From the IMG/VR virus record IMGVR_UViG_3300009170_000007, positions 1 through 58,560 of that record: a stretch of 58,560 bases of DNA; one strand, given 5' to 3'. Positions 918 to 58,560 of this stretch are shown here, piece after piece (the first letter of the stretch is position 1; every line of letters begins with the position of its first letter). Below the pieces are notes generated by a model, which was not told where the DNA came from, did no database searches, and saw only the letters and a program-made list of their open reading frames with translations. A program made the position numbers and the translations under genes. The DNA comes from a virus.

Positions 918-1101
918 CCCAGCCGGAAATGATCGTTACCGGGAGATTACTAATCAACCCACCAACTCAGATGGTATATCTCTCAACCTTAGGTACTGTT
1001 CTATTTGTAAGAACCGTGTGCAAATCGCCGGCGGGAAATACATTAGAGGTACCTCCCGCCATAACCCTGGACGCTTTATCTGTAAGGATTGCAAATGTTA
1101 G
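904..1101 (+). CDS. Small zinc-finger-like protein
   Basis: A 65-residue protein from ATG 904 (an ATG at 910 is also possible). It carries CSIC and CKDC knuckles around an AGGKYIRGTSR loop, a treble-clef or ribbon-like arrangement common in small phage proteins. It follows another four-cysteine protein directly, so two tandem zinc-binding proteins lie here. Its 3' end overlaps the start of the next gene. The role is unknown. Confidence 0.6.
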   Translation: MAMFDPAGNDRYREITNQPTNSDGISLNLRYCSICKNRVQIAGGKYIRGTSRHNPGRFICKDCKC

Positions 1102-1835
1102 TTGACCTGTGTTACGAAGTAGCCGCCATCCCCTCTTATCAATCCCTTTATACTGGGGTCAGGAAAGTGGTGCAGGGAATCACCCACTCCCTGGATACTC
1201 TACCTGAAGTCGACTTAGCTCAGCTAGGTTATCGGGGAGGAAAAATCCCTCAACTCATGCGTAACTACTTCAATCAGGAGGAAGTCAATGCAGCTAAAAC
1301 CAAGCTGGCCGCTCGCCGCAGTTCTCCGCACACATCCGTTGCTCTCAATACCCTGGGACAAAACAAAGACACTCGGTCTCAAGGGCACTGTATCCGTTCC
1401 ATCATTATTACTCAAACAACCAAGTGGACTGAAGTCGACATCATATACCGAAGCACGGAGCTCATTCAAAAGCACACCGCCGATTATGCCCTCTTACCAA
1501 TCATTCTTGAACAGCTTGGCCTGGCACACCCCCCCCGCATCTACCGGCTTTACTTCGCCAATTGCTTCCTTACCGCGCTCTTCGCTCCGATCCTCTTTCA
1601 GCATACCCACCCTATTGAGTTCTATGAACACCTAAAGAGGCACGATCCTCGGTACTACCGGACTTTCCTCAACGCCACGGCTAAGTTCTTCGAGCCAGAA
1701 TGCCGATACGCTTACAAGCATAGAGTAAAGATGTGGGAAATGACTCAGGCTAAACTGGACTGTCGTGCCTTAGCTAAATACTGCCAGGACAATGGCGCCT
1801 CTTTTCAGCCTGGGGAGTACCTCGATGAGTCTTAA
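1095..1835 (+). CDS. Thymidylate-synthase-fold protein, possible dCMP-modifying enzyme (first copy)
   Basis: A 246-residue protein. ATG 1095 is preferred over TTG 1089 because AAGGA lies at 1084-1088. I see a divergent thymidylate synthase core. Cys99 (QGHCI) lies exactly 20 residues before Arg119 (YRSTE), and Asp130 lies 11 residues after Arg119. In E. coli ThyA the same spacing links Cys146, Arg166 and Asn177. The Asn-to-Asp change is the one known to switch T4 gp42 to dCMP. The Asp of the RSxD motif is Glu122 here, and the rest of the family signature is weak. It may be a second enzyme or a partner subunit of the protein at 2025. The family call is an inference from motif spacing. Confidence 0.5.
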   Translation: MLVDLCYEVAAIPSYQSLYTGVRKVVQGITHSLDTLPEVDLAQLGYRGGKIPQLMRNYFNQEEVNAAKTKLAARRSSPHTSVALNTLGQNKDTRSQGHCIRSIIITQTTKWTEVDIIYRSTELIQKHTADYALLPIILEQLGLAHPPRIYRLYFANCFLTALFAPILFQHTHPIEFYEHLKRHDPRYYRTFLNATAKFFEPECRYAYKHRVKMWEMTQAKLDCRALAKYCQDNGASFQPGEYLDES

Positions 1836-2028
1836 GAATTTAGATGAAGTAGCCATCCTACAAAAGTACATCGTTGATCTTGATCAAGAGTTGTCAAGAC
1901 AGAAGGATGAAAATAGGATCCGGTTCATGTGTGCTGCCCTTTCCAGTACTCCGGCTAATGCCAACCCTGAATTAGCCGCTGACAGGGCTTATAATATCGC
2001 TATACACTGCATGAGAATAATTCAATGA
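1825..2028 (+). CDS. Small hypothetical protein between the two TS-fold genes
   Basis: A 67-residue protein from ATG 1825, with GGGGAG a few bases upstream. The N-terminal half is a charged helix (ILQKYIVDLDQELSRQKDE) and the C-terminal half an Ala-rich helix ending CMRIIQ. It overlaps the genes on both sides, so it is part of the same translationally coupled group. No known motif. It could be an accessory factor of the neighbouring enzymes, but nothing in it shows that. Confidence 0.6.
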   Translation: MSLKNLDEVAILQKYIVDLDQELSRQKDENRIRFMCAALSSTPANANPELAADRAYNIAIHCMRIIQ

Positions 2029-2831
2029 AATACCCCTCTTTCCAAGATCTACTGATGGATGTTCGGTTGGCCTTTTCCACAGCGCCCATTGTTAAGCCAA
2101 GTCATTGGCAGGGGACGCTGGTTCGTGGTAAGCCAGACATGGAGACTTATGAGATCCTCAACCACTCCTCTACCCTATGGTTACCGGATGAGGAACTAGA
2201 AGGCTATCGGAAAGACATTGAGCCTGACCTTCCATGGGCTGATGATCACTTTGAGGAAAGAGTCTGCGGCTATCCTCTCAACCCCGGTATTCAATGGTCC
2301 AAATGGAGATTAGGGAAAGGTGCCGACCAGTTCAGGGAGCCCAGTGGGAGGTTCAACCACAACTATATGGAGCGATTCTGGCCCCGCTACGCCCGTAAAG
2401 TTCCCGCGTCCGATAGACCACAACCCCAGTTTCTTTTAGGTTTGACTCCACATAGGGGAATCCTCTATGAGTATGGTGACTTGCATAGTGTAGTCGAGTT
2501 ACTAGCTCGGGAGCCCCTCACTCGTCAAGCCTTTCTACCTATATTCTTTCCAGAGGACACCGGAGCTGTCCATAAGGATCGAACTCCCTGTACCTTAGGC
2601 TACCATTTCATAGTCCGGAACGACCAGCTGCATGGCGTTTATTATCTTCGCTCCTGTGATGTTACTAATCACTGGCGAAATGACATCTACATGGCCATTC
2701 GTCTGATAATATGGATATTGGAACGGTTAAGGACCGTTCAACCCGAGGCCTGGGAAATGATTAGTCCCGGGACTCTTACAACTCACATTACCTCACTACA
2801 CTGCTTCCGTGGAGAATACTCAAAGCTTTGA
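2025..2831 (+). CDS. Thymidylate synthase family protein with dCMP-type active site (putative dCMP hydroxymethylase)
   Basis: A 268-residue protein. The segment from residue 183 to 233 aligns without gaps to E. coli ThyA: TPC (Cys189 = catalytic Cys146), YxxRSCD (Arg209, Ser210, Asp212 = Arg166, Ser167, Asp169) and Asp220 in place of Asn177. LTTHITSLH near the C-terminus matches the ThyA DTHLYSNH block. Asn to Asp at this position marks dCMP specificity in T4 dCMP hydroxymethylase (Asp179). The predicted reaction is transfer of a one-carbon unit from methylenetetrahydrofolate to C5 of dCMP. Whether methyl or hydroxymethyl is made cannot be told. The protein ends soon after the His block, which is short for the family. 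ATGA-type overlap with the gene upstream. Confidence 0.72.
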   Translation: MKYPSFQDLLMDVRLAFSTAPIVKPSHWQGTLVRGKPDMETYEILNHSSTLWLPDEELEGYRKDIEPDLPWADDHFEERVCGYPLNPGIQWSKWRLGKGADQFREPSGRFNHNYMERFWPRYARKVPASDRPQPQFLLGLTPHRGILYEYGDLHSVVELLAREPLTRQAFLPIFFPEDTGAVHKDRTPCTLGYHFIVRNDQLHGVYYLRSCDVTNHWRNDIYMAIRLIIWILERLRTVQPEAWEMISPGTLTTHITSLHCFRGEYSKL

Positions 2832-3792
2832 AGAACTCTGGGCTGAACTCAAATTTCAGCTCAATCTAACCGACCATGACCTGGAGAACCAAATGAAACC
2901 TCTTGTTATCTACCACGCCAACTGTGCAGATGGATTCGGAGCCGCTTACGCTGCATGGACCCATCTGGGCGACCACGCGGATTATGCTCCCGCCAATTAC
3001 GGAGATTGTGTGATTAGTGCTGATAGCATCTTGATTGGCGAAGACACCTACGTAGTTACCGATCGTTGGGTATACATCTTGGACTACTCTTTGCCGGTTT
3101 CTGAGATGCATCTGCTCATGAAGATCTGTCCACGAGTAATCTGGCTAGACCATCATAAGACGGCCATCGAGAACTGGGTCGGGAAAGGGGCTCTGGATGA
3201 GTTTGTTAGCATCAATTCTTCTACCAACATCCGACTCAATAATGAGAAGTCTGGGTGTCGTCTAGCTTGGGAGTTCTTCCATACCGAGGAACCCCCCATG
3301 GGATTACGACACATCGAGGACTGGGATCTGTGGCGCTTCACGATGGCCGACACTAAGGCTTACTGTGAAGGACTACGTCAAGTACCCCAGAATTTCGAGG
3401 CCTGGGAAGAAGTCATGCATTCTCCTGATCTCCACTGGAAGACCATCCGGGTGGGGGAAACACTGCTGAAGTCTCAAGCTATCCGGATCAATAAGGTAGC
3501 TCACGGAAAGTTGAACGCCATTACCCTTCACGACAACGAGGGTACTCCTCACACTTTCAATAGCATCAACGTCTGCAATGACATCAGCGAAACGGGTAAT
3601 GCGATTTGCCTTCGTACCGGTTTGCCCAGTGCCACCTTCTTCGTCAATCTCAATGAAGTAGTCATCTCTCTTCGATCAGAGGGTGACTTCGACGTTTCCC
3701 GAATCGCCAAGCACTACGGGGGCGGTGGACACAAGAACGCAGCTGGATTCAAGATGAACACTACCATCTTTTTCAACACCATCTGGAAATGA
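2809..3792 (+). CDS. DHH-family phosphoesterase
   Basis: A 327-residue protein of the DHH/DHHA1 superfamily, which includes RecJ-like exonucleases and NrnA-type oligoribonucleases that cleave phosphodiesters with Mn2+. Visible motifs are HANCADGFGAAYAA near the N-terminus, a WLDHHKT core (the DHH motif) and a C-terminal GGGGHKNAAGF DHHA1 signature. GTG 2809 gives an extra 28 residues of coding-like helix. ATG 2893 has a better ribosome site (GGAG, six bases) and starts right at the domain. The substrate cannot be told; a role in nucleotide turnover or end processing fits the neighbours. Confidence 0.85.
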   Translation: MENTQSFEELWAELKFQLNLTDHDLENQMKPLVIYHANCADGFGAAYAAWTHLGDHADYAPANYGDCVISADSILIGEDTYVVTDRWVYILDYSLPVSEMHLLMKICPRVIWLDHHKTAIENWVGKGALDEFVSINSSTNIRLNNEKSGCRLAWEFFHTEEPPMGLRHIEDWDLWRFTMADTKAYCEGLRQVPQNFEAWEEVMHSPDLHWKTIRVGETLLKSQAIRINKVAHGKLNAITLHDNEGTPHTFNSINVCNDISETGNAICLRTGLPSATFFVNLNEVVISLRSEGDFDVSRIAKHYGGGGHKNAAGFKMNTTIFFNTIWK

Positions 3793-3793
3793 C

Positions 3794-4072
3794 ATGAAAA
3801 CTATCTTCGTAACTCCCGACACCCTAAAGGATAGCCCTGAGCTGAACATGATTCGCAAAGCGTTAGCGGCTGAGCTCATCGAGCTTTCCCGACCTCTGGA
3901 ACTGGTGGTGGATGATGAGATCATGGATCATCTATTGATCGTTATCAGTAACTTATGCTCAGAAATACCCCAACCCAAAGAGATATACGACCGGCTCCTC
4001 GGCAAGGGATATAAGCACCCCGCGGGATGGGCACCTAACGAAACCCACCCCACCCCTGAGCAAGTTCAATGA
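3794..4072 (+). CDS. Hypothetical protein
   Basis: A 92-residue acidic protein placed one base after the DHH gene and overlapping the dCMP deaminase by ATGA. The central part (IRKALAAELIELSRPLELVVDDEIMDHLLIV) is broken by prolines but largely helical; the tail is Pro/His rich. I do not recognise it. Confidence 0.6.
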   Translation: MKTIFVTPDTLKDSPELNMIRKALAAELIELSRPLELVVDDEIMDHLLIVISNLCSEIPQPKEIYDRLLGKGYKHPAGWAPNETHPTPEQVQ

Positions 4073-4545
4073 GAATTTCCCGGGACGAGCAAATGGCTTA
4101 CCATGCCCTCGTCACCTCTCTTCGCTCTACCTGTGGACGAAAGATGGTGGGGGCTATCATAGCCAGAGAGGGGAGAATCATATCCTCGGGCTATGCTGGG
4201 CCTCCCTCGGGATTCCCTCATTGCAACAGGGCCTGCACGGTGGCCTCAAGCGCCATGGGTGGATGTCAACGCACCATTCATGCCGAGCAGAACGCTATCG
4301 CTTACGCCGCTCGACATGGCATCTCTACCGATGGGGCAGTCTTGTATAGCACGTTGTCTCCCTGTACAAATTGTGCAAAGCTCCTGATCAATGCTGGGAT
4401 AAATGCTGTAAAATACATTGAACAGTACCGGGACGCCTCCGGAATTGAATTACTTACTTCAGCTGGAATACCATGTACAACAGTGAATGTCAACTCTGCA
4501 ATCTTCACAAATCTTCAGCAAGCATATGTATCCCAGCCACTTTAG
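4069..4545 (+). CDS. dCMP deaminase family protein
   Basis: A 158-residue zinc-dependent deaminase of the cytidine/dCMP deaminase superfamily; it would convert dCMP to dUMP. The zinc site is visible as HAEQNAI (His ligand and catalytic Glu) and SPCTNC (two Cys ligands). GYAGPPSGFPHC upstream is typical of dCMP deaminases. It lies between the TS-fold genes and DNA polymerase. The polymerase gene starts 73 bases inside its 3' end, an unusually long overlap. In T4 this enzyme works with dCMP hydroxymethylase and dCTPase, which matches the gene set here. Confidence 0.87.
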   Translation: MRISRDEQMAYHALVTSLRSTCGRKMVGAIIAREGRIISSGYAGPPSGFPHCNRACTVASSAMGGCQRTIHAEQNAIAYAARHGISTDGAVLYSTLSPCTNCAKLLINAGINAVKYIEQYRDASGIELLTSAGIPCTTVNVNSAIFTNLQQAYVSQPL

Positions 4546-6956
4546 CCGAAGAGTCTACTGATGTCTTAGTCATTGGCGATGCTCCAAGTGTCTCCGACGC
4601 CAATGCCGGTGCTTACCTCCAGGGGAAGCTGGGAGCTGAGCTCTATCGAGCGATGGATAAGATTGGCATCGAACACTTCGCTTACACTGGGGTAGTCAAG
4701 TGCAACCCGCCAGATGGCAAAAAGCCCGAGCCCGCTGAGGTCAAAGCCTGTTCCCATTACTTACAACAAGAGATAGCCCGGTTACGACCCAAGTTCGTTC
4801 TGGTGCTCGGGGCTACCGCAGTAAAGTCAGTCTGTAAAGAGGCCCGAATCACTGGTGTCGTAGGTAAGGTCATTGAGCGGGACGGCATCAAGTACATGCC
4901 TTGCTTCTCTCCGGCTTATGTTCTGCGTGATCCAGGGAAAGCTCCTGAGTTCAATCGGACTATGGCTAGGTTCAGGGATATGGTAAGAGGGAAGACCCAG
5001 ATTACCACCGAACTCAAAATCCGTATCATCGACCGATCTAACCTGGATGAGTTTCGAACCAAATTCCAGTTAGAGCGTGAGTTTGTATGTGACCTAGAAA
5101 CTTCTGGGCTGGACCATTTTCAACCAGCCTCATACATCAACTGTGTGGGGATGTACCTCCCTTTGGCAGGGGAAGCCTGGGTCTTACCGATACGCAAAGC
5201 TCCAACCCTTCCGGAGGAGACTCAACGTCGACTGCTTGAATGGATGTCCAGCTTAAGCATTCCGGTCATCAACCAAAACTGGAAATTCGACTCACTCTTC
5301 CTGTACCATAAGTTCGGAGTGTCATTCTACAACCGGGATGACACGATGCTTGCTCACTATAACCTGGACGAGAATACCCCGCATGGCCTGAAGGAGAATG
5401 CTAGGTTCCACCTGGATGCTCCTGACTATGATCTGACCACGGCGGAAAAGAAGGGCAATACCACGGCTACTAAGCTCTTCACGTATTGCGCCTGGGACTG
5501 CCACTACACCTATCAGCTCAGGAACCTGTATCGTAAGGACCTGATGAAGGACTTGGAAACCCGAAATATCTATCAGCATCTGACCATGCCCGCCTCCAGG
5601 ATGTACGAGGTTATCGAGCGGGAAGGCCACTTCGTCAACCTGGATAAGTTCCGTGCAACAGAACAGGAGCTATCCACTAAGCTCAAACTGGCAGAAGCTA
5701 AACTCAACCATTCTCTAGGACACCCCATCAATTGGAACTCTCCCGCTCAGGTTGGAAAGGCCCTTTACCATGATCTGGGATTGACTCCATCGGTCTTTAC
5801 GGACAAGGGAGCGGCCAGTACCGGGGAAGAAGCTCTATCCCATCTGGACCACCCCATCGTCAAACAACTGGTGGATTACCGGGAGAATCAGAAGTTTCTC
5901 TCCACCTACATCGAGGGATGGAAGGAATTCATGATCGGCCCCTATCTATACCTTGGGACTAAGCTCCATGGGACGGTCACTGGACGTTACTCTTCACGAC
6001 TCCACCAGGTACCACGTGACGGGACCATCCGCAACCTGATCGAAGCCCCTCCAGGATGGACCTTTGTACAAGGTGACCTCTCCCAAGCTGAACTGAGGGT
6101 CATCGCCATTGTTTCTCAAGACCCAGAACTGGTCAAATGCTATCGAGACGGTATTGATGTTCACTGGAGGACTACGGTTGGGGTTCTTCGGTTAGGGGGA
6201 AGTGAAGCTGATCTTCAAATGGCCAGAGAGACTGTAGCCAAGACGGGGTCAGGTATGGAGCCTCTCTCCATGTCAGAGGTATTAGACCAGTTAGAGGCTA
6301 TGGGACCGGATATGGCTGTGCAACTGGAAAAGCGTTGGAAGGAAAAGCGGAAGCAGTCCAAGGGAATTAACTTCGGGTATGTTTATGGGATGGGAGCTAA
6401 CAAGTTCTGTGAATATGCCAAGCTTAAATATGAGTGGGACGTAACCTTCTCTGAGTCTACCAATATACGCACAGGATTCTTTGGGACTTACCATTTTCTA
6501 CCGGCCTGGCACAAGCGTCAACGGGACCTAGTCAAAATCGATGGGTTCGTTAGGTCTCTATCGGGTAGAAAGCGTCGTCTACCGGGGATCTGGTCTCCAG
6601 ACCGTATGGTCTCTTCTGAAGCTGAGCGTCAAGCAATCAACTCTCCAGTCCAGGGGTTCATTGGTGACCTGAAGGTCATGGGGATGCTAGATATCTATGA
6701 GAAGATTCAACTTCTGAACCCAGACAAAATCCGGATGAAAGGTGAAGTACATGACTCTATCCTCATGTGGGTCAAAACCGAGTACTTGGATGAAATCTTA
6801 CCGCAGGTAAAAAGATGTATGGAGAAACCCACCTGGCTGGACCAATTTGACATAAAATTACCTGTTCCCATTGTAGCTGACATCGAAGTTGGCCCTTGGG
6901 GAGCTGGCAAACCTTGGCATGGAGAAAAGCAATGCTTAAACTGTTCGATGCAATAG
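4473..6956 (+). CDS. Fusion of a family 4 uracil-DNA glycosylase-like domain and family A DNA polymerase
   Basis: An 827-residue replicative polymerase. Residues 1-170 resemble family 4 UDG: Cys6, Cys9, Cys77 and Cys93 have the Fe-S spacing, but the GEAPG motif is GDAPS and the HPS motif is FSPAYVLR, so the catalytic His is missing. Residues about 200-370 are a DEDD 3'-5' exonuclease (CDLETSGLD, NQNWKFD, YCAWD). Residues about 430-810 are the PolA palm and fingers: motif A GDLSQAELR, motif B around KGINFGYVYG, motif C EVHDS. Motif C has Ser where HDE is usual. The start is supported by the CxxC at the very N-terminus despite the overlap with the deaminase. The exonuclease looks active; the glycosylase is probably altered or only senses uracil. 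Confidence 0.92.
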   Translation: MYNSECQLCNLHKSSASICIPATLAEESTDVLVIGDAPSVSDANAGAYLQGKLGAELYRAMDKIGIEHFAYTGVVKCNPPDGKKPEPAEVKACSHYLQQEIARLRPKFVLVLGATAVKSVCKEARITGVVGKVIERDGIKYMPCFSPAYVLRDPGKAPEFNRTMARFRDMVRGKTQITTELKIRIIDRSNLDEFRTKFQLEREFVCDLETSGLDHFQPASYINCVGMYLPLAGEAWVLPIRKAPTLPEETQRRLLEWMSSLSIPVINQNWKFDSLFLYHKFGVSFYNRDDTMLAHYNLDENTPHGLKENARFHLDAPDYDLTTAEKKGNTTATKLFTYCAWDCHYTYQLRNLYRKDLMKDLETRNIYQHLTMPASRMYEVIEREGHFVNLDKFRATEQELSTKLKLAEAKLNHSLGHPINWNSPAQVGKALYHDLGLTPSVFTDKGAASTGEEALSHLDHPIVKQLVDYRENQKFLSTYIEGWKEFMIGPYLYLGTKLHGTVTGRYSSRLHQVPRDGTIRNLIEAPPGWTFVQGDLSQAELRVIAIVSQDPELVKCYRDGIDVHWRTTVGVLRLGGSEADLQMARETVAKTGSGMEPLSMSEVLDQLEAMGPDMAVQLEKRWKEKRKQSKGINFGYVYGMGANKFCEYAKLKYEWDVTFSESTNIRTGFFGTYHFLPAWHKRQRDLVKIDGFVRSLSGRKRRLPGIWSPDRMVSSEAERQAINSPVQGFIGDLKVMGMLDIYEKIQLLNPDKIRMKGEVHDSILMWVKTEYLDEILPQVKRCMEKPTWLDQFDIKLPVPIVADIEVGPWGAGKPWHGEKQCLNCSMQ

Positions 6957-8953: not shown

Positions 8954-9882
8954 GTCGAGAAGAATACTACAGCCAGTCCAAAATCAAAACCTGGCGCCGG
9001 TGTCATGCCTCTTATGATTACCGGTATGGCCAGGGGTTGATAAGGCGAACGGCTCCAGTGGCTATGCTCAGGGGTACAGTGCTTCATGCTATGATGGAAG
9101 CCAATATTCTGGGCAAAGACCCAATGGTCCCGTTGGGAGCTTACTCTGAAGCCTATTCAAAGCTCTGGGCTGAAGAGGCTGAACAGTATCCCGCTCCGGA
9201 GGAGTTGGTCTCTATCATTCATCGGTATAATCGACATTGGACCAACGATGGGCTGACCTATGGCGATCGAGCTGAGCTTGAGGTGATGACTGAGTATCGT
9301 GGACTGAAGTTCAAAGGTATCATCGATGCTATGCCAGATGATACTCAAGGAAGACGCTGGCTCTGTGATCACAAAACCCATAAAACCCTACCAGATGAAA
9401 ACGCCAGGTTCGCTGACATCCAGACGGTCTTGTACTATTGGGCGGCTAGGGACACGGGACTTAAGGTTGACGGAATCTTGTGGGATTACCTGAGGACTAA
9501 GCCTCCAGCGATCCCTGAGCAACTGAAGGCGGGTGGACTGACCAAGCGGGCCAACATCGACACTGATCGGGCCACCTACTTGGGACGCATTAACGAGCTT
9601 GGTCTAAACCCTCAGGACTATGCTGATATTCTGGCTAAGATTGACAAGAACGTATTTTTCCAGCGAGTTTACCTACCGAAGCCAGCCGAGGAGTTAATCA
9701 TCAATGTTGTGGAGGAGTTCTTCGACACCGCACATGAGATCGAAAACAGCACCAGCAAAGCCCGTAACTTGACTTTCAACTGTTCAACCTGCACTTACTA
9801 CCCCATCTGCTCGGCTGAAGTTCGAGGTCTGGACTCCTCATACATCAGGAAGCAGTTGTATATGCTTCGGGAGACGAGATGA
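8950..9882 (+). CDS. Cas4/RecB-like PD-(D/E)XK exonuclease with Fe-S cluster
   Basis: A 310-residue nuclease. N-terminal YSQSKIKTWRRC (Cys18) plus C-terminal CSTCTYYPIC form the four-cysteine Fe-S site of Cas4-like and AddB-type nucleases. The active site is visible as GIIDAMPDD followed by WLCDHKTHK (Asp and Lys of the PD-(D/E)XK motif). It likely resects DNA ends for the neighbouring annealing or recombinase ATPase. ATGA overlap with DUF932 on one side and the HNH gene on the other. There is no CRISPR array in the window. Confidence 0.85.
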   Translation: MSREEYYSQSKIKTWRRCHASYDYRYGQGLIRRTAPVAMLRGTVLHAMMEANILGKDPMVPLGAYSEAYSKLWAEEAEQYPAPEELVSIIHRYNRHWTNDGLTYGDRAELEVMTEYRGLKFKGIIDAMPDDTQGRRWLCDHKTHKTLPDENARFADIQTVLYYWAARDTGLKVDGILWDYLRTKPPAIPEQLKAGGLTKRANIDTDRATYLGRINELGLNPQDYADILAKIDKNVFFQRVYLPKPAEELIINVVEEFFDTAHEIENSTSKARNLTFNCSTCTYYPICSAEVRGLDSSYIRKQLYMLRETR

Positions 9883-10346
9883 AAACCTTCTGGGACAAAG
9901 TTACAGTAAATGGCCTTGACGGATGCTGGATATGGAGAGCAGGACTAAACTCTAATGGCTATGGTATGGTTAGATTCCAAGGTAAGGTCCGTTCGGCCCA
10001 TCGGGTGTCCTATGAATTAACCCATAAACCCATCCCTTCTGGTATGGTAGTTATGCACTCTTGTGACAATAAACGTTGTGTAAATCCCAACCATTTATCC
10101 ATTGGTACGCATATGGACAATATTCAAGACATGGATAAGAAGGGTCGAGGAAACCGTGTTCGACTCCCCGGAGTCCGGAATGGGAGGGCTAAGCTTACTG
10201 AGTTGGATATTCGGAGTATCCAAGGTAGTGTGGAGTCTGGAAAAGCCTTATCAAAGAAATGGGGGATTTCCCAGACAAGAATTAGTTTAATACGTAATGG
10301 AAAAGTCTGGAGTCATCTTCCCTGCGAGAAGCTAAATAGGGTATAA
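9879..10346 (+). CDS. HNH homing-type endonuclease
   Basis: A 155-residue free-standing HNH endonuclease. FWDKVTVNGLDGCWIW is the usual N-terminal start of this phage family. The HNH core is HRVSYELTHK, then MHSCDNKRCVNPNHLSIGT. The C-terminal part (LTELDIRSIQ, ALSKKWGISQTRISLIRNGK) is a helix-turn-helix DNA-binding module. Such genes move between phages and cut cognate sites. It sits between the exonuclease and the Sak4-like ATPase, which in related operons are often adjacent, so it may be an insertion. Confidence 0.88.
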   Translation: MKTFWDKVTVNGLDGCWIWRAGLNSNGYGMVRFQGKVRSAHRVSYELTHKPIPSGMVVMHSCDNKRCVNPNHLSIGTHMDNIQDMDKKGRGNRVRLPGVRNGRAKLTELDIRSIQGSVESGKALSKKWGISQTRISLIRNGKVWSHLPCEKLNRV

Positions 10347-36820: not shown

Positions 36821-39800
36821 CTAGTAATGCAACAAAAGAAACTCAATATCATCTTCTTCATCGAGTTCGGATTGTGCTTCATCCCGAATACGTTGATATT
36901 GTACCCCATCGTTCGAGATTTGTAAATAAGTCTCGTTGATCTTAGCGTAAATCTTTTCCCACGGATCATCAGGGGAGACTATATGTGGAGTGTAGGTTCG
37001 TGCGGAACGTACAGGAACTGCCGTAACGGGCTTCTGAGGCTTTACCTTACGAGTCTTGGGTGTTGTTATAACCGGTGGAGGTTCACTTACTACTTTGCGT
37101 TTTGCGTCTTCCTCTAGAGCTTTTGCCTGGAGCTCTTCAACGAACTCACGCGGTAATTTAGTCTGTACTGGCTTCCAAACATTGCTGCGAGCCAGACGAC
37201 TAACCCCGGATTGTCCTTGACTAGCCGCGTCACCGCTATTGATGATTATAGCGGAACCACCAGTCAGGTTGTACTCACCGCCAGCAGTTTGAAGATACTT
37301 ACTCTTCAGGAGAGTGGAATTTGCTCCGATCAAGTCATAACTACCACCCAGAGCAATGAGGGTGTAATTTACTACCTTAGTGATTATCGCTTGACTACCG
37401 GTAACGGAGTATGCACCGCCAGAACTTTGAATGTACTTGCTTCTCAGCAAGGTGGCACTAGCGCCGGTCAAGGTGTAGCTGCCACCAGAAGCTTGAATCC
37501 GCTTAGACCGCAGGAGGGTAGCTGAACTACCTGTCAGGGAGTATGAACCCCCCAGAGCCGTGAGCGTATAGTTCGCTGCTAACGAGGTCCAGGTTAGAAC
37601 TGCGCTCGAGCCTGTCAGGGTGTAGCTGCCGCCCTGAGCGACTACTAACTTAGAACGGAGAAGCGTGGCTGATGCACCAGTTAAGGAATAAGCCCCACCT
37701 TGAGCAGTGAGTACTCTTCCCTTGACTAGGTTCGCGCTAGCACCAGTTAGTGTGTATGAACCACCCGTAGAGACAATACGCTTAGAACGTAAGAGGTTAG
37801 CTGTCCCACCGGTGAGATTGTACGCGCCTCCGGTTGAGACGATACGCTTGCTCTTCAGTAGGTTCGCACTTGCCCCGGTCAGGGCATAAGAACCACCAGT
37901 TGATACAATACGCTTGGAGCGGAGCAGATTCGCAGAGCCACCTGTTAAGCTGTAGGTTCCACCAGTTGCTGTCATGTTTCTATTTCTAGATACAACAGCA
38001 CTTGATCCGGTTACTGAGTACGATCCACCTAGTAGAGTGAACGTATAGTTGACAGAACCTGCGGTCCATGTAAGTACAGCACTGGAACCAGTAAGAGTGT
38101 ACGCTCCTCCTGATGCGGCTACGTACTTGCTTCTCAGCAGGTTTGCTGTTCCACCTGACAGAGAATAAGAGCCACCAGAAGCAGTGAGTTTTCTGTTCCT
38201 AGATAAGTTAGCAGAGCCACCAGTAAGCGTGTATGCTCCACCGGTTGCGGTTAGTTTCCTATTTCTAGATACTACAGCACTGGCACCTGTTAGACTATAT
38301 GAGCCCCCGCTAGACGTTAGTTTTCTATTTCTAGATACTACCGCTGAGGAACCAGTCAGGGCATAGCTACCACCATTAGCAGTTAGTGTATAAGTAGATG
38401 CCGGGGCTGCTACCTTGAATGCTATGACGTGTGTGGTTCTTGGGAAGCTGTTTGTACCATCGGTGAATGTCGCCGTTTGCGCGCCGGTTGCCGAGACATT
38501 CTTGTACTCTGAGGTCAGCATTTGCCGGCTGCCGATCAGGGCGTACCCTGTTCCGGCATTCAGCGTCGTGCTTTCTGCTCCTGACGATCCTGTGTTCTGA
38601 GTCAGACCGATGACAAAATCATTGGCGTTTGTTGTGGCAGCGGTAGCTGATGAAGAAATTCCATCAGTAGCATTACCAGGTGCTGCCTGATACTGATTTG
38701 CCGCTCTATCCTCTGCTGAGGTTGTGGCGAGTCCTGCGACCTCCACCAAGAGCAATCGGCGAAAAGGAACAGCCGTACTGAACGTGGCGGTTACTGTGTG
38801 GCTTCCCGATCCAGCATTAAGCAAGTAGAAGGCATTTGAATTCTGCGAATTACCTGTGTCACGGCATCTACCGTCCGCCGACTGCGTATAGGATGTACCG
38901 TCGCTAACCGTAACTGTTACTGTAGAACCACCGCCGTCGCCAACAAAGGCGATGATCGCGCTGCCTGCGGCTACACCCGTGATCGTTGTGGCTATGGTTG
39001 TGGTACTTGTTGCGTTGTCTCCACTACCCTCATAGACGCTTTGGAGGACTGTGCCACCTGCTGCTGCCTTTGTCAGAATGGCACTAGAACCAGTCAGTGA
39101 GTATGAACCGCCTGATGCTACTAGTTTTTTACTTCTCAGTAAAGATGCAGTACCACCAGTTACAGAATAAGAACCGCCCTGTGCAGTTAGTGAGTAGTTA
39201 TTAACCGCAGGTCGTAGAGCAATCGTATAGGCCGCCCAAGAATCCACCGCATTAGTTGTGCCGCCAGTGTATTGTGCCGGATCGACCGCACCGCTTGTCC
39301 AGCCTGACCAGTAGCCGGAACCAACCATAGCATCGTTGGTATCTGCGGTGAAGCCCGTCAGGAAGTTGGTCGTGAAGTTGGCCGGCGCAGTGTAGGCCGC
39401 ACCGGTGGCCGCTGCGCCACCACCACAGATGACCACCCAAGCGCCGGCTGTCGTCGGGGTGATCGAGCCGGGATTGGGCCTGCCTGTTGCCGTGCCAGTA
39501 GCAGAGACCGCAGCCACATCGAGCGGGTTGGTTGGATCAACCCCACGAAACACCTGAATCGTGTAACGCTGGGCGTCCGCCACATTGCCCGTCGAGGGCA
39601 GCGTGAAGGTGGTATTCGGCGTGGCCGGCATGAACTTCCGCGACACGTTGAGACTTGTGTCGTAGGTCGTCGTGTTCGGGTTGAGTTGCCCGAGCGCCGT
39701 CCAAGTGGCGGGGGCGGTGATCGCCTGTGCGGGATTGCGGCCCTGTGAGCCGACAATCGCCGTGATGATGACGAGATCGCCCGCCGCTGGGACAGAGGCT

Positions 39801-39889
39801 AAGCCGCCCGTCAGGGCATAGGTAACGGTCGTGGTGGAATTTGCCCCAGCACGACCAGCGACCTGCCCACCGACGTATTGAATAGCCAT
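36821..39889 (-). CDS. Large repetitive fibre/adhesin-like protein
   Basis: A 1022-residue protein. The N-terminal 230 residues are a beta domain (TAVVDPTN-type strands, Trp-rich). Residues about 265-490 form a second beta domain. Around and after it are 19 copies of a repeat starting GGSY(S/T)LTG, usually 22 residues long with a Lys/Arg cluster (LLRSKR, VSRNRK). The last 140 residues are charged (EELQAKALEEDAKRKV, SELDEEDDIEFLL). The Gly/Ser/Thr repeat suggests an extended beta shaft, as in fibres or adhesins. It lies between portal and head genes, an unusual place for a tail fibre, so it may decorate the head. Confidence 0.7.
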   Translation of the reverse strand: MAIQYVGGQVAGRAGANSTTTVTYALTGGLASVPAAGDLVIITAIVGSQGRNPAQAITAPATWTALGQLNPNTTTYDTSLNVSRKFMPATPNTTFTLPSTGNVADAQRYTIQVFRGVDPTNPLDVAAVSATGTATGRPNPGSITPTTAGAWVVICGGGAAATGAAYTAPANFTTNFLTGFTADTNDAMVGSGYWSGWTSGAVDPAQYTGGTTNAVDSWAAYTIALRPAVNNYSLTAQGGSYSVTGGTASLLRSKKLVASGGSYSLTGSSAILTKAAAGGTVLQSVYEGSGDNATSTTTIATTITGVAAGSAIIAFVGDGGGSTVTVTVSDGTSYTQSADGRCRDTGNSQNSNAFYLLNAGSGSHTVTATFSTAVPFRRLLLVEVAGLATTSAEDRAANQYQAAPGNATDGISSSATAATTNANDFVIGLTQNTGSSGAESTTLNAGTGYALIGSRQMLTSEYKNVSATGAQTATFTDGTNSFPRTTHVIAFKVAAPASTYTLTANGGSYALTGSSAVVSRNRKLTSSGGSYSLTGASAVVSRNRKLTATGGAYTLTGGSANLSRNRKLTASGGSYSLSGGTANLLRSKYVAASGGAYTLTGSSAVLTWTAGSVNYTFTLLGGSYSVTGSSAVVSRNRNMTATGGTYSLTGGSANLLRSKRIVSTGGSYALTGASANLLKSKRIVSTGGAYNLTGGTANLLRSKRIVSTGGSYTLTGASANLVKGRVLTAQGGAYSLTGASATLLRSKLVVAQGGSYTLTGSSAVLTWTSLAANYTLTALGGSYSLTGSSATLLRSKRIQASGGSYTLTGASATLLRSKYIQSSGGAYSVTGSQAIITKVVNYTLIALGGSYDLIGANSTLLKSKYLQTAGGEYNLTGGSAIIINSGDAASQGQSGVSRLARSNVWKPVQTKLPREFVEELQAKALEEDAKRKVVSEPPPVITTPKTRKVKPQKPVTAVPVRSARTYTPHIVSPDDPWEKIYAKINETYLQISNDGVQYQRIRDEAQSELDEEDDIEFLLLHY
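37235..39195 (-). repeat. Tandem 66-bp repeat region coding for GGSYSLTG units
   Basis: Seventeen units lie between about 37235 and 38400 and two more near 39080-39190, each about 66 bases, with variable residues after the GG and in the basic cluster. Longer units carry a Trp insertion (LTWT...NYT). Units such as RSKRIVSTGG are almost identical, which points to recent duplication and possible length variation. Confidence 0.75.
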
Positions 39890-56770: not shown

Positions 56771-57262
56771 ATGATCATAGTTGAAGGTCCAGACAATACC
56801 GGAAAGACCACACTTATCCAACAGCTGCAGGATATTTTTCATCTGCCATCACTTAGGGCGGGCTTCCATCCACAGAACCCTAAAGACATCCATCAATATC
56901 ACTACTGGGCGGTCACCTCCCCACGTCAGTTGATTTTAGACCGACACCCCGCCGTCTCGGACTTCATCTATACACCCATCCTGAGACCCACCGAACCTGA
57001 GCTCTCCTCATTAGACCTCATCATTCGGATGTTGGACCGTCACTACACTATTTTCGCCCTCCCTCCATTCAACCAGGTTGAAAAGAGTTATGACGAACGA
57101 CCTCAACTTAAGGGGACGAAAGAAAACCTCCGACGCATTTATCAAGCCTATGAGAAACTGTTGAATGACTTTGAACCCAACTTCCTGTATGACTATACCA
57201 AACCCAATGCCTTTACGGCTCTCACCACCCACCTAACCCACTACCTGGCGCGCTCATCATGA
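56771..57262 (+). CDS. Thymidylate kinase-like deoxynucleoside monophosphate kinase
   Basis: A 163-residue P-loop kinase. The start IIVEGPDNTGKTTLIQQL is the thymidylate-kinase Walker A. The strand LILDRHPAVSDFIY supplies the DR(H/Y) motif, and the tail is helical. It is shorter than cellular dTMP kinases (about 205). The substrate could be dTMP or a modified dCMP, as for T4 gp1 kinase. It overlaps the pyrophosphatase gene by four bases, which ties the two functions. Confidence 0.82.
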   Translation: MIIVEGPDNTGKTTLIQQLQDIFHLPSLRAGFHPQNPKDIHQYHYWAVTSPRQLILDRHPAVSDFIYTPILRPTEPELSSLDLIIRMLDRHYTIFALPPFNQVEKSYDERPQLKGTKENLRRIYQAYEKLLNDFEPNFLYDYTKPNAFTALTTHLTHYLARSS

Positions 57263-57813
57263 TCCAAGAAACCCTTCCCCGAATCTTCGAATTTCAGTCT
57301 CAGCTCATCGAGACACTCCGTCCCATCGAAATTGAACTGGGATATACCCCACCCCAAATTCCGTTAGATTTCACTCTCAGAGCCCACCAGGACTGGTTCC
57401 GGCTCATGTCATGGTACCTGACGGAAGAGATCATCGAGGCGAAAAGTGCTAACCACACCCTGCTTCCCGAGGAAATGGCTGATGCCCTTCACTTCGCAGT
57501 GGAACTGTGTATCCTCGCCGACATCCCACCTCATCAGGTGTTAGAACGTCTGGCCCTGGAGCAATTCGAGCCTTACTCCACCCCGCAAACCCTGGACGAC
57601 GTCATCTTCCATCTGGGACTAGCTAACAACCTGCTCAAGGCTAAGCACTGGAAGAAAAACCCCAAGCCCACACCACTGAGCAACTTCCGGTATCATCTGG
57701 CTTCTTCCTTGATCTCTTTACTTCAGTGCTTCTTCCAGGCTCAGATTGACCCCGCCGAAGAGTACTTCAAGAAGCATCAAATAAATAATGACAGAGCCCA
57801 ATCCGGGTACTAA
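57259..57813 (+). CDS. All-alpha NTP pyrophosphatase (MazG/dUTPase-2/dCTPase type)
   Basis: A 184-residue all-helical protein. The metal-binding pattern EEIIEA (EExxE) followed about 18 residues later by EEMADAL (ExxD) is that of the MazG-like and dimeric dUTPase/dCTPase group. In phages this group hydrolyses dUTP or dCTP; T4 gp56 is the dCTPase that keeps dC out of DNA. The C-terminal 60 residues have no known motif. Position between the kinase and the TS-fold genes supports a nucleotide-pool role. Confidence 0.7.
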   Translation: MIQETLPRIFEFQSQLIETLRPIEIELGYTPPQIPLDFTLRAHQDWFRLMSWYLTEEIIEAKSANHTLLPEEMADALHFAVELCILADIPPHQVLERLALEQFEPYSTPQTLDDVIFHLGLANNLLKAKHWKKNPKPTPLSNFRYHLASSLISLLQCFFQAQIDPAEEYFKKHQINNDRAQSGY

Positions 57814-57816
57814 TCC

Positions 57817-57837
57817 CTTATAATGGGTATGTCACTA
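57817..57837 (+). promoter_or_regulatory. Promoter element identical to that at 11812
   Basis: A 21-base block with TATAAT at 57819-57824, identical to 11812-11832. It lies between the pyrophosphatase stop and ATG 57860. No good -35. It would start transcription of the operon that runs over the window joint. Confidence 0.6.
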
Positions 57838-57859
57838 ACCAAAACCGGAGTCCGATATC

Positions 57860-58096
57860 ATGCCCTGCATCCAGTACCTCACCGCCAAAGTTAAGCATCA
57901 CGACCAAGAGTTCAATGCGGTTATCTCCGAACACTCCAGCAACACCTTCATCTTCGGATTCAGTCAACTCCCGGTCACCACTTCGACTCACATGAGCTTC
58001 GCTTCCCTGAAGGCGATCGCCGACATGTTGAACCTCGCCGTCGCTGTTCACGAGCAGCGCATCGCCGCCGACATGGAGCATCAAGACAATGACTAA
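57860..58096 (+). CDS. Small hypothetical protein
   Basis: A 78-residue protein, first gene after the promoter at 57817. It has a small alpha/beta pattern (IQYLTAKVKHHDQEFNAVIS, THMSFASLKAIADMLNLAV) and an acidic His-rich end. It overlaps the next gene. Function unknown. Confidence 0.6.
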   Translation: MPCIQYLTAKVKHHDQEFNAVISEHSSNTFIFGFSQLPVTTSTHMSFASLKAIADMLNLAVAVHEQRIAADMEHQDND

Positions 58097-58268
58097 TCGT
58101 CAATTCGCAGCGGCACACGACCGCTACCTCGAGCCGGAAGATGACCGGCAGGACGACTCCCCCGAGGACGACGAAATGGACCTCGCCGACATAGCGCGCC
58201 AGAAGCGCTTGGACCGTGAGGATTGGGAAGCGGAAACGCTTCGGCAGAAACAGGAGTGCGACGAATGA
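58089..58268 (+). CDS. Small acidic hypothetical protein
   Basis: A 59-residue protein from ATG 58089, overlapping both neighbours by four to eight bases. It is highly charged (RYLEPEDDRQDDSPEDDEMD, then RLDREDWEAETLRQKQE). Probably helical. Function unknown. Confidence 0.6.
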   Translation: MTNRQFAAAHDRYLEPEDDRQDDSPEDDEMDLADIARQKRLDREDWEAETLRQKQECDE

Positions 58269-58560
58269 ACAACGAATGGCAAGACCTGCCCACTGTGCAG
58301 GACGTGGCCCGCGCCCAATACGAAGGGTGGGAGATTCAGTACCGAGTAAAAGGCACTGAGTTTGGTTGGTGGCCAGGGAATAATTGGTATCGTGACTATA
58401 TATTCCGTGGTCGTCCCGCGCAGTCGAAGAAGGTCACAGTCACCAGCGAGTGCTGGCGGCACCCTGAGCACGGAGGACTGTTTTGGCGGTCTCACGGAAA
58501 TACAACTTGCAAGCCGGAGGCATATGTACGCTTCCCCGCCGGAGACATTACAGGATATGT
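58265..58560 (+). CDS. Small hypothetical protein, paralogue of the gene at 305, cut by window end
   Basis: 98 codons are visible from ATG 58265 (ATGA overlap). MNNEWQDLP, WEI, a FRGRP block, ECWRHPEH and PAGDIT match the gene at 305 in order and spacing. If circular, it continues for twelve more codons to the stop at 32-34, giving 110 residues. Function unknown. Confidence 0.72.
   Translation, partial: MNNEWQDLPTVQDVARAQYEGWEIQYRVKGTEFGWWPGNNWYRDYIFRGRPAQSKKVTVTSECWRHPEHGGLFWRSHGNTTCKPEAYVRFPAGDITGY

Follow-up and report, generated by a model that had tools for sequence, protein, structure and literature searches.

A phage nucleotide gene module with two thymidylate synthase-fold proteins that probably serves cytosine replacement

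Genes of nucleotide metabolism lie at both ends of the stretch of DNA analyzed here (the window), which is one virus record of 58,560 bases, classed as linear, and they raise the question of whether this virus makes a modified cytosine before replicating its DNA or only supplies itself with dTMP. A kinase gene and a pyrophosphatase gene are found at the right end, and the genes for two proteins with the thymidylate synthase (TS) fold (TS1 and TS2), a DHH phosphoesterase, a dCMP deaminase and a DNA polymerase with a uracil-DNA-glycosylase (UDG)-like domain at the left end, as follows.

56771..57262, plus strand: TMPK-like (d)NMP kinase, proposed kinase of modified dCMP (phrog_761, P-loop, profile match to RB69p045, 42/44 loci)
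57259..57813, plus strand: all-alpha NTP pyrophosphatase of the dUTPase_2/T4 dCTPase superfamily (PF08761, EExxE..D residues, gp56 C-terminal signature, 42/44 loci)
1095..1835, plus strand: TS1, divergent TS-fold protein, obligate partner of TS2 (AlphaFold, Foldseek, invariant Cys101/Arg121/Asp132, linkage to TS2)
1792..2028, plus strand: small ORF between TS1 and TS2, no family match
2025..2831, plus strand: TS2, TS-superfamily enzyme with a dCMP-type active site (phrog_160, residues, Foldseek, own clade)
2809..3792, plus strand: DHH phosphoesterase (phrog_4771, 1e-63)
3794..4072, plus strand: small ORF without relatives in the locus set
4069..4545, plus strand: dCMP deaminase (PF00383, 3.5e-20; phrog_174, 1e-42; 48/48 module loci)
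4473..6956, plus strand: DNA polymerase A with an N-terminal UDG-like domain, the next gene of the module (PF00476, 4e-64; PF03167, 5e-21; 48/48 loci)

An earlier note on this DNA had described the kinase gene as overlapping that of an all-alpha pyrophosphatase, and a TS-fold pair with a dCMP deaminase at 1095-4545. Both descriptions were confirmed: the overlap, of 56771-57262 with 57259-57813, is 4 bp, and the assignments are based on sequence and fold for TS2, on fold only for TS1 and on PF00383 for the deaminase. The note had also joined the two groups on a circular map. In a related contig, L010 (19,483 bp), the kinase, pyrophosphatase, TS1, TS2, DHH phosphoesterase, deaminase and polymerase genes are contiguous in this order on one strand, so the split of the module across the window ends is probably only the site where the contig was cut, and a circular map is likely. 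The window itself carries no terminal repeat at its ends and its record is linear; its end-to-end join gives an open frame with a stop soon past the junction, which is compatible with circularity, short of proof. Positions 57814-58560 hold only small ORFs without assigned function. Two similar small ORFs, at 305-616 and 58223-58560 (WxxLPxxxx...RGRP...CWxHPE...PAGDIT), are apparent paralogues flanking the contig ends.

The gene set was found to recur in 55 distinct loci that carry TS1 and TS2, in which neighbors were scored only where the contig was long enough. The kinase was present in 42 of 44 such loci, the all-alpha pyrophosphatase also in 42 of 44 (8 of the dUTPase_2 type and 34 MazG-like), and the deaminase and the polymerase each in 48 of 48. 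Pseudomonas phage PMBT14, Serratia phage Serbin, Yersinia phage P744 and Brevundimonas phage Strzyga have the same gene order, as do two spring-water phages with ThyX inserted. Phages of Microbacterium, Gordonia, Streptomyces and Mycobacterium have it too, although their TS1 is more distant. Isolated carriers on laboratory hosts include JacoRen57 of Mycobacterium smegmatis mc2 155, Cozz of Gordonia terrae 3612 and PMBT14 of Pseudomonas fluorescens ATCC 13525. The DHH phosphoesterase also occurs in L010, L011, L034 and L079, which comprise the closest relatives and a single locus that lacks TS1. Phage 9g, whose group has 22 proteins in common with Serbin (PMC6509536), possesses a comparable replication module, and was found to be without such a kinase, deaminase or TS2 (the sole TS2 match was of 13 bits, with five stops); it carries queuosine-type genes, that is, another DNA modification. 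Given this recurrence in 55 distinct loci, and given that 9g has neither the kinase nor the deaminase nor TS2, the set is more than a chance assembly. TS2 was not found on plasmids, and a search of genome contigs gave relatives on only six, all from metagenome-assembled genomes (MAGs). A TS2 relative was seen on a 3.9-kb contig (L128) binned as a Candidatus Lokiarchaeota MAG, probably a virus contig or mis-binned.

The kinase matched phrog_761, phage thymidylate kinases (E 4e-15), with TMPK-like motifs (the P-loop GPDNTGKTT and DRHPAxSxxIY), and its profile matched RB69p045, a kinase encoded near RB69p048 (E 3e-16), with no match to T4 gp1 (-0.5 bits). The pyrophosphatase scored 20.9 bits against PF08761 (dUTPase_2), just under the Pfam cut-off of 22.9, and matched phrog_12184, nucleotide pyrophosphohydrolase, at 1e-9; its EExxE..D residues are invariant among relatives, and its C-terminal signature is common to T4 gp56, to which the likeness is distant. 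This signature belongs to the superfamily and is not specific to dCTP. Since, in addition, two different families occupy the slot in relatives, specificity for dCTP is not readable from the pyrophosphatase, and a reading of its preference for dCTP or dUTP was rejected. The deaminase is ordinary and its identification firm. The logic and roles of the set are like those of T4 (gp42 dCMP hydroxymethylase, gp56 dCTPase, gp1 kinase and Cd deaminase), but the equivalence with the T4 enzymes that the earlier note drew did not extend to their families: the kinase differs from gp1 in family, TS2 lies outside the gp42 clade, and two families fill the pyrophosphatase slot. Compared with T4, the window also has an extra TS-fold protein, TS1, and a single operon, and no glucosyltransferase was found in it.

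All four gene names fit ordinary dTMP supply as well, in which the deaminase and a dUTPase would give dUMP, TS2 would convert it to dTMP and the kinase would produce dTDP, with no modified base. The relatives are annotated that way, the kinase is TMPK-like and no other dTMP synthase was recognized in the window; the active site of TS2, however, argues against this explanation. TS2, a TS by sequence profile (phrog_160, 3e-24) and by fold, was compared in a joint alignment with ThyA, SPO1 gp29 and 55 T4-type, 15 RB69-type and 8 AXL1/Xp12-type sequences, using 31 TS2 sequences and E. coli numbering. Residue 177 was Asn in ThyA and in the SPO1 dUMP hydroxymethylase (gp29), a class of one sequence for which a pattern search returned no relatives, whereas it was Asp in the T4-type dCMP hydroxymethylases (55/55), the RB69 type (15/15), the AXL1/Xp12 type (8/8) and TS2 (31/31). 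Asn at this position marks dUMP enzymes and Asp dCMP enzymes, the change from Asn to Asp shifts TS towards dCMP (cited in PMC8670742), and in MetaGPA the positions 177 and 147 were the two that mark cytosine-modified phage DNA (PMC8670742). Furthermore, Cys146 and Asp177 were present in TS2 of all 65 loci, with Thr or Ser at 147, and no TS2 showed the canonical dUMP signature of Asn177 and His147; the window protein has Cys146, Thr147, Asp169, His173 and Asp177. TS2 is also without Arg127 and the C-terminal segment of ThyA, and is accompanied by a second TS-fold protein. Microbacterium phage Huwbert carries TS2 and a canonical ThyA (His147, Asn177) side by side, and ThyX stands beside the module in two relatives. 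As a separate ThyX or ThyA is present alongside TS2, dTMP has its own enzyme in those relatives, which shows that TS2 need not be a dTMP synthase there. Taken together, dTMP supply is an improbable explanation of the module, and it is well supported, judged by the dCMP-type residues, that TS2 would read cytosine.

If TS2 acts on dCMP, the group that it would add has to be considered by comparison with the known dCMP enzymes. The TS2 of the window and T4 gp42 agree at Cys146, Thr147, Asp169, Asn176 and Asp177, and both are without the ThyA C-terminus. In the tree, on the other hand, TS2 formed a clade of its own (support 100/96), apart from the T4-, RB69- and Xp12-type and ThyA groups, with the gp42 group separate from it (93/94). 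Residue 173 is Gly in gp42 and in every folate-using class compared, whereas it is His in 31/31 TS2, and residue 172 is mostly Arg in TS2; we take positions 172 and 173 to line the folate site in TS structures. With Gly173 replaced by His and Arg mostly at 172, folate chemistry like that of a hydroxymethylase cannot be taken for granted in TS2.

This bears on a second explanation, in which TS2 would be a flavin-using dCMP hydroxylase like RB69p048/AfhB, not a hydroxymethylase, and the product would be 5-hydroxycytosine. A 5-hydroxy-dCMP synthase of the TS superfamily has been described for Mosigvirus, the genus of RB69 (PMC13390438). The sequence of the AfhB structure 9iqu is identical to RB69p048, letter for letter, over the stretch compared, and we read RB69p048 as this Mosigvirus enzyme. 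For TS1 as well as TS2, AfhB (9iqu and 9iqc) ranked with the best matches by structure. By sequence and predicted fold, the nearest solved relatives of TS2 include MilA, a CMP hydroxymethylase, AfhB and T4 dCMP hydroxymethylase, and among the listed Foldseek hits the target-normalized TM-scores were highest for the AfhB structures (0.70 and 0.67), with 0.56-0.61 for the T4 enzyme; MilA, by contrast, was slightly ahead by sequence score. RB69 resembles the window in encoding an Asp177 TS-fold dCMP enzyme close to a TMPK-like homologue of the window kinase, and Phe209 of TS2 is common to the RB69-type class. TS2 was also sister to the RB69-type group in the tree, but weakly (79/78), and the join was flagged as a possible long-branch effect. 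Residue 169, moreover, is Asp in 31/31 TS2 and Asn in 15/15 RB69-type enzymes, so that TS2, with Asp169 and His173, lacks the Asn169 and Val173 signature of the AfhB/RB69p048 type, and no arabinose genes were found in the window, whereas RB69 has arabinose and transferase genes. A flavin-using hydroxylase is thus a rather unlikely identity for TS2.

A third explanation is that TS2 would be a dCMP methylase and the product 5-methylcytosine, as in Xp12. Asp177 by itself can confer dCMP methylase activity on a TS (cited in PMC8670742), and the TS homologue of Xp12/AXL1 has Asp177 and adjoins a pyrophosphatase and a dCMP deaminase, as in the window. AXL1 DNA is resistant to enzymes with G/C sites (PMC9206674), although the assignment of the AXL1-type gene as the source of 5-methylcytosine in Xp12 is itself inferred. 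The Xp12/AXL1 enzyme, which is a single annotated TS, is characterized by Pro147, Gly173 and a TS-like C-terminus, whereas TS2 has Thr or Ser147 and His173, is without this C-terminus and belongs to a different clade. We consider a dCMP methylase very unlikely.

The partner of TS2 was placed through its predicted structure. The TS1 gene starts at 1089 or, more likely, at the ATG at 1095, which has an AAGGA-type sequence upstream at a suitable distance, and ends at 1835. A search of the PDB with the TS1 sequence alone gave nothing convincing, sequence profiles failed to place it and no link to TS2 was detected by sequence alone; because this link failed, the identity of TS1 rests on its predicted fold and on motif placement. 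The AlphaFold model (pLDDT 91.5, pTM 0.86) matched T4 dCMP hydroxymethylase and thymidylate synthases in Foldseek with a probability of 1.00, all 50 listed matches belonged to the TS superfamily, and the best TM-scores among them were to AfhB (0.50/0.56 and 0.51/0.54). Cys101, Arg121 and Asp132 were invariant in all 26 sequences compared (22 relatives and 4 actinophage versions) and, by motif placement, would correspond to about 146, 166 and 177, namely, the catalytic Cys, the phosphate Arg and the dCMP-type Asp. The model and these motifs together give TS1 the TS fold with a catalytic Cys and a phosphate Arg. At the counterpart of residue 169, the 22 relatives have Glu and the actinophages Tyr, and positions 172/173 are Lys/Gln-Lys in most TS1 and Arg-His in most TS2.

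With TS1 by itself as the query, 46 independent loci were found, in 45 of which TS2 adjoins it, the 46th being a contig with TS2 at its opposite end. TS2 is also found on its own, for the most part in larger genomes, whereas TS1 without TS2 was not found. In relatives, the TS1 gene is listed as that of a hypothetical protein or, less strictly, of a 'pyrimidine hmase synthase'. The obligate pair is the distinguishing feature of the module; no account of it was found in the literature searched, which is not proof of novelty. A possible second TS1-like ORF of weak score (39 bits) was seen downstream of TS2 at L085:7052-7894.

TS1 may be either a subunit or an enzyme acting on the TS2 product. As the latter, it would decorate the product in a second step in place of sugar transferases, which is compatible with cytosine modification by TS2 and concerns the role of TS1 only. 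TS1 retains the Cys, the Arg and the dCMP-type Asp, and its occurrence only with TS2 fits such a step. Near the TS1-TS2 pairs sampled, no sugar genes were found, nor any for glycosyltransferase, DegT, amidotransferase or methyltransferase, whereas one or other of them is found near some TS1-less TS2 loci. However, TS enzymes are dimers, so that the tight linkage fits a heterodimer equally, and the TS1-less genomes are often larger and hence have more sugar genes regardless. A second step by TS1 is therefore a tentative proposal, to which we lean less than to its alternatives.

A search of the window recovered neither a GT2 glycosyltransferase nor a carbamoyltransferase, and no such Pfam match was present among 37 ORFs, nearly all on the minus strand, in agreement with the earlier note, which had recognized no sugar transferase there. 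On the modified contigs of MetaGPA, a TS with Asp177 and an altered residue 147, a phosphoribosyl-ATP-type pyrophosphohydrolase and a dCMP deaminase co-occur (PMC8670742), which resembles the window. The MetaGPA contigs with 5-carbamoyloxymethyl-dC have a carbamoyltransferase, whereas the window and 11 named relatives yielded none; GT2 occurred in one of the 11, Zuko. These searches thus returned no second-stage modifying enzyme. Among the TS1-less loci, genes for a GT2 glycosyltransferase, a DegT aminotransferase and a methyltransferase flank TS2 in two large phage contigs (L038 and L032). An asparagine-synthase/glutamine-amidotransferase-like gene, a candidate for an amide-type base decoration, lies upstream of TS2 at L034:2862-4322 and L048:4209-5612, in a cluster that also includes L016, L057, L059 and L063. 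At L034:4895-7054, also upstream of TS2, there is a C5-cytosine methylase gene split by an intein and DUF559/REase-like domains.

The suggestion that the whole set points to modified cytosine was thus upheld, mainly by the dCMP-type active sites of TS2 and TS1, and we consider it probable, from the sequences compared, that the module serves cytosine replacement at the nucleotide level, before replication. In the proposed mechanism, the pyrophosphatase would hydrolyze dCTP and/or dUTP, yielding dCMP from the former and limiting the pool of unmodified dCTP. TS2, by itself or in a heterodimer with TS1, would attach a small substituent at C5 of dCMP, with the Asp177-type pocket recognizing cytosine and Cys146 acting as the catalytic nucleophile. 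The TMPK-like kinase would phosphorylate the modified dCMP, the phage PolA would incorporate the resulting nucleotide instead of part or all of the dC, and the DNA could thereby be protected from restriction, while the deaminase would channel dCMP to dUMP for dTMP.

With cytosine as the target, the product may be 5-hydroxymethylcytosine, 5-hydroxycytosine, 5-methylcytosine or a derivative, and is not nameable from sequence. 5-Hydroxymethyl-dC is ranked first because Asp169, Thr147, Asp177 and the truncated C-terminus of TS2 agree with T4 gp42, although at slightly less than even odds; 5-hydroxy-dC would be a possible but not a favored product, a further TS1-dependent derivative a rather unlikely one and 5-methyl-dC an improbable one. 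Modified cytosine is therefore likely, but the T4 product, 5-hydroxymethylcytosine, is only one candidate among several. More speculatively, TS1 and TS2 could modify dCMP together, either as one enzyme of two proteins or as a relay of two steps, with non-standard folate use, making an undescribed cytosine derivative across phages of Proteobacteria and Actinobacteria.

In the papers searched, we found no measured DNA modification of any module carrier, and restriction data were absent from those about P744, Serbin, the Desulfofustis phage and Xenia2. The genomic DNAs of Strzyga and Polewnik come from a collection typed by EcoRI patterns, in which a gel for each phage was not found (PMC10070969); complete resistance of these two relatives would be hard to reconcile with such typing. 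If cytosine replacement by the module is true, many phages annotated with an ordinary 'thymidylate synthase' and an adjacent 'hypothetical protein' make altered cytosine, which would affect their encounters with restriction enzymes, CRISPR nucleases and modification-dependent defenses, and the behavior of their DNA in cloning and sequencing.

Two further observations were made elsewhere in the window. An HNH endonuclease gene, probably that of a homing endonuclease, lies at 9879-10346 between genes for a Cas4-like exonuclease and a Sak4-like ATPase. Imperfect repeats, several at 66-bp spacing, are present at 37265-38369 within a minus-strand ORF of 1022 aa (36821-39889).
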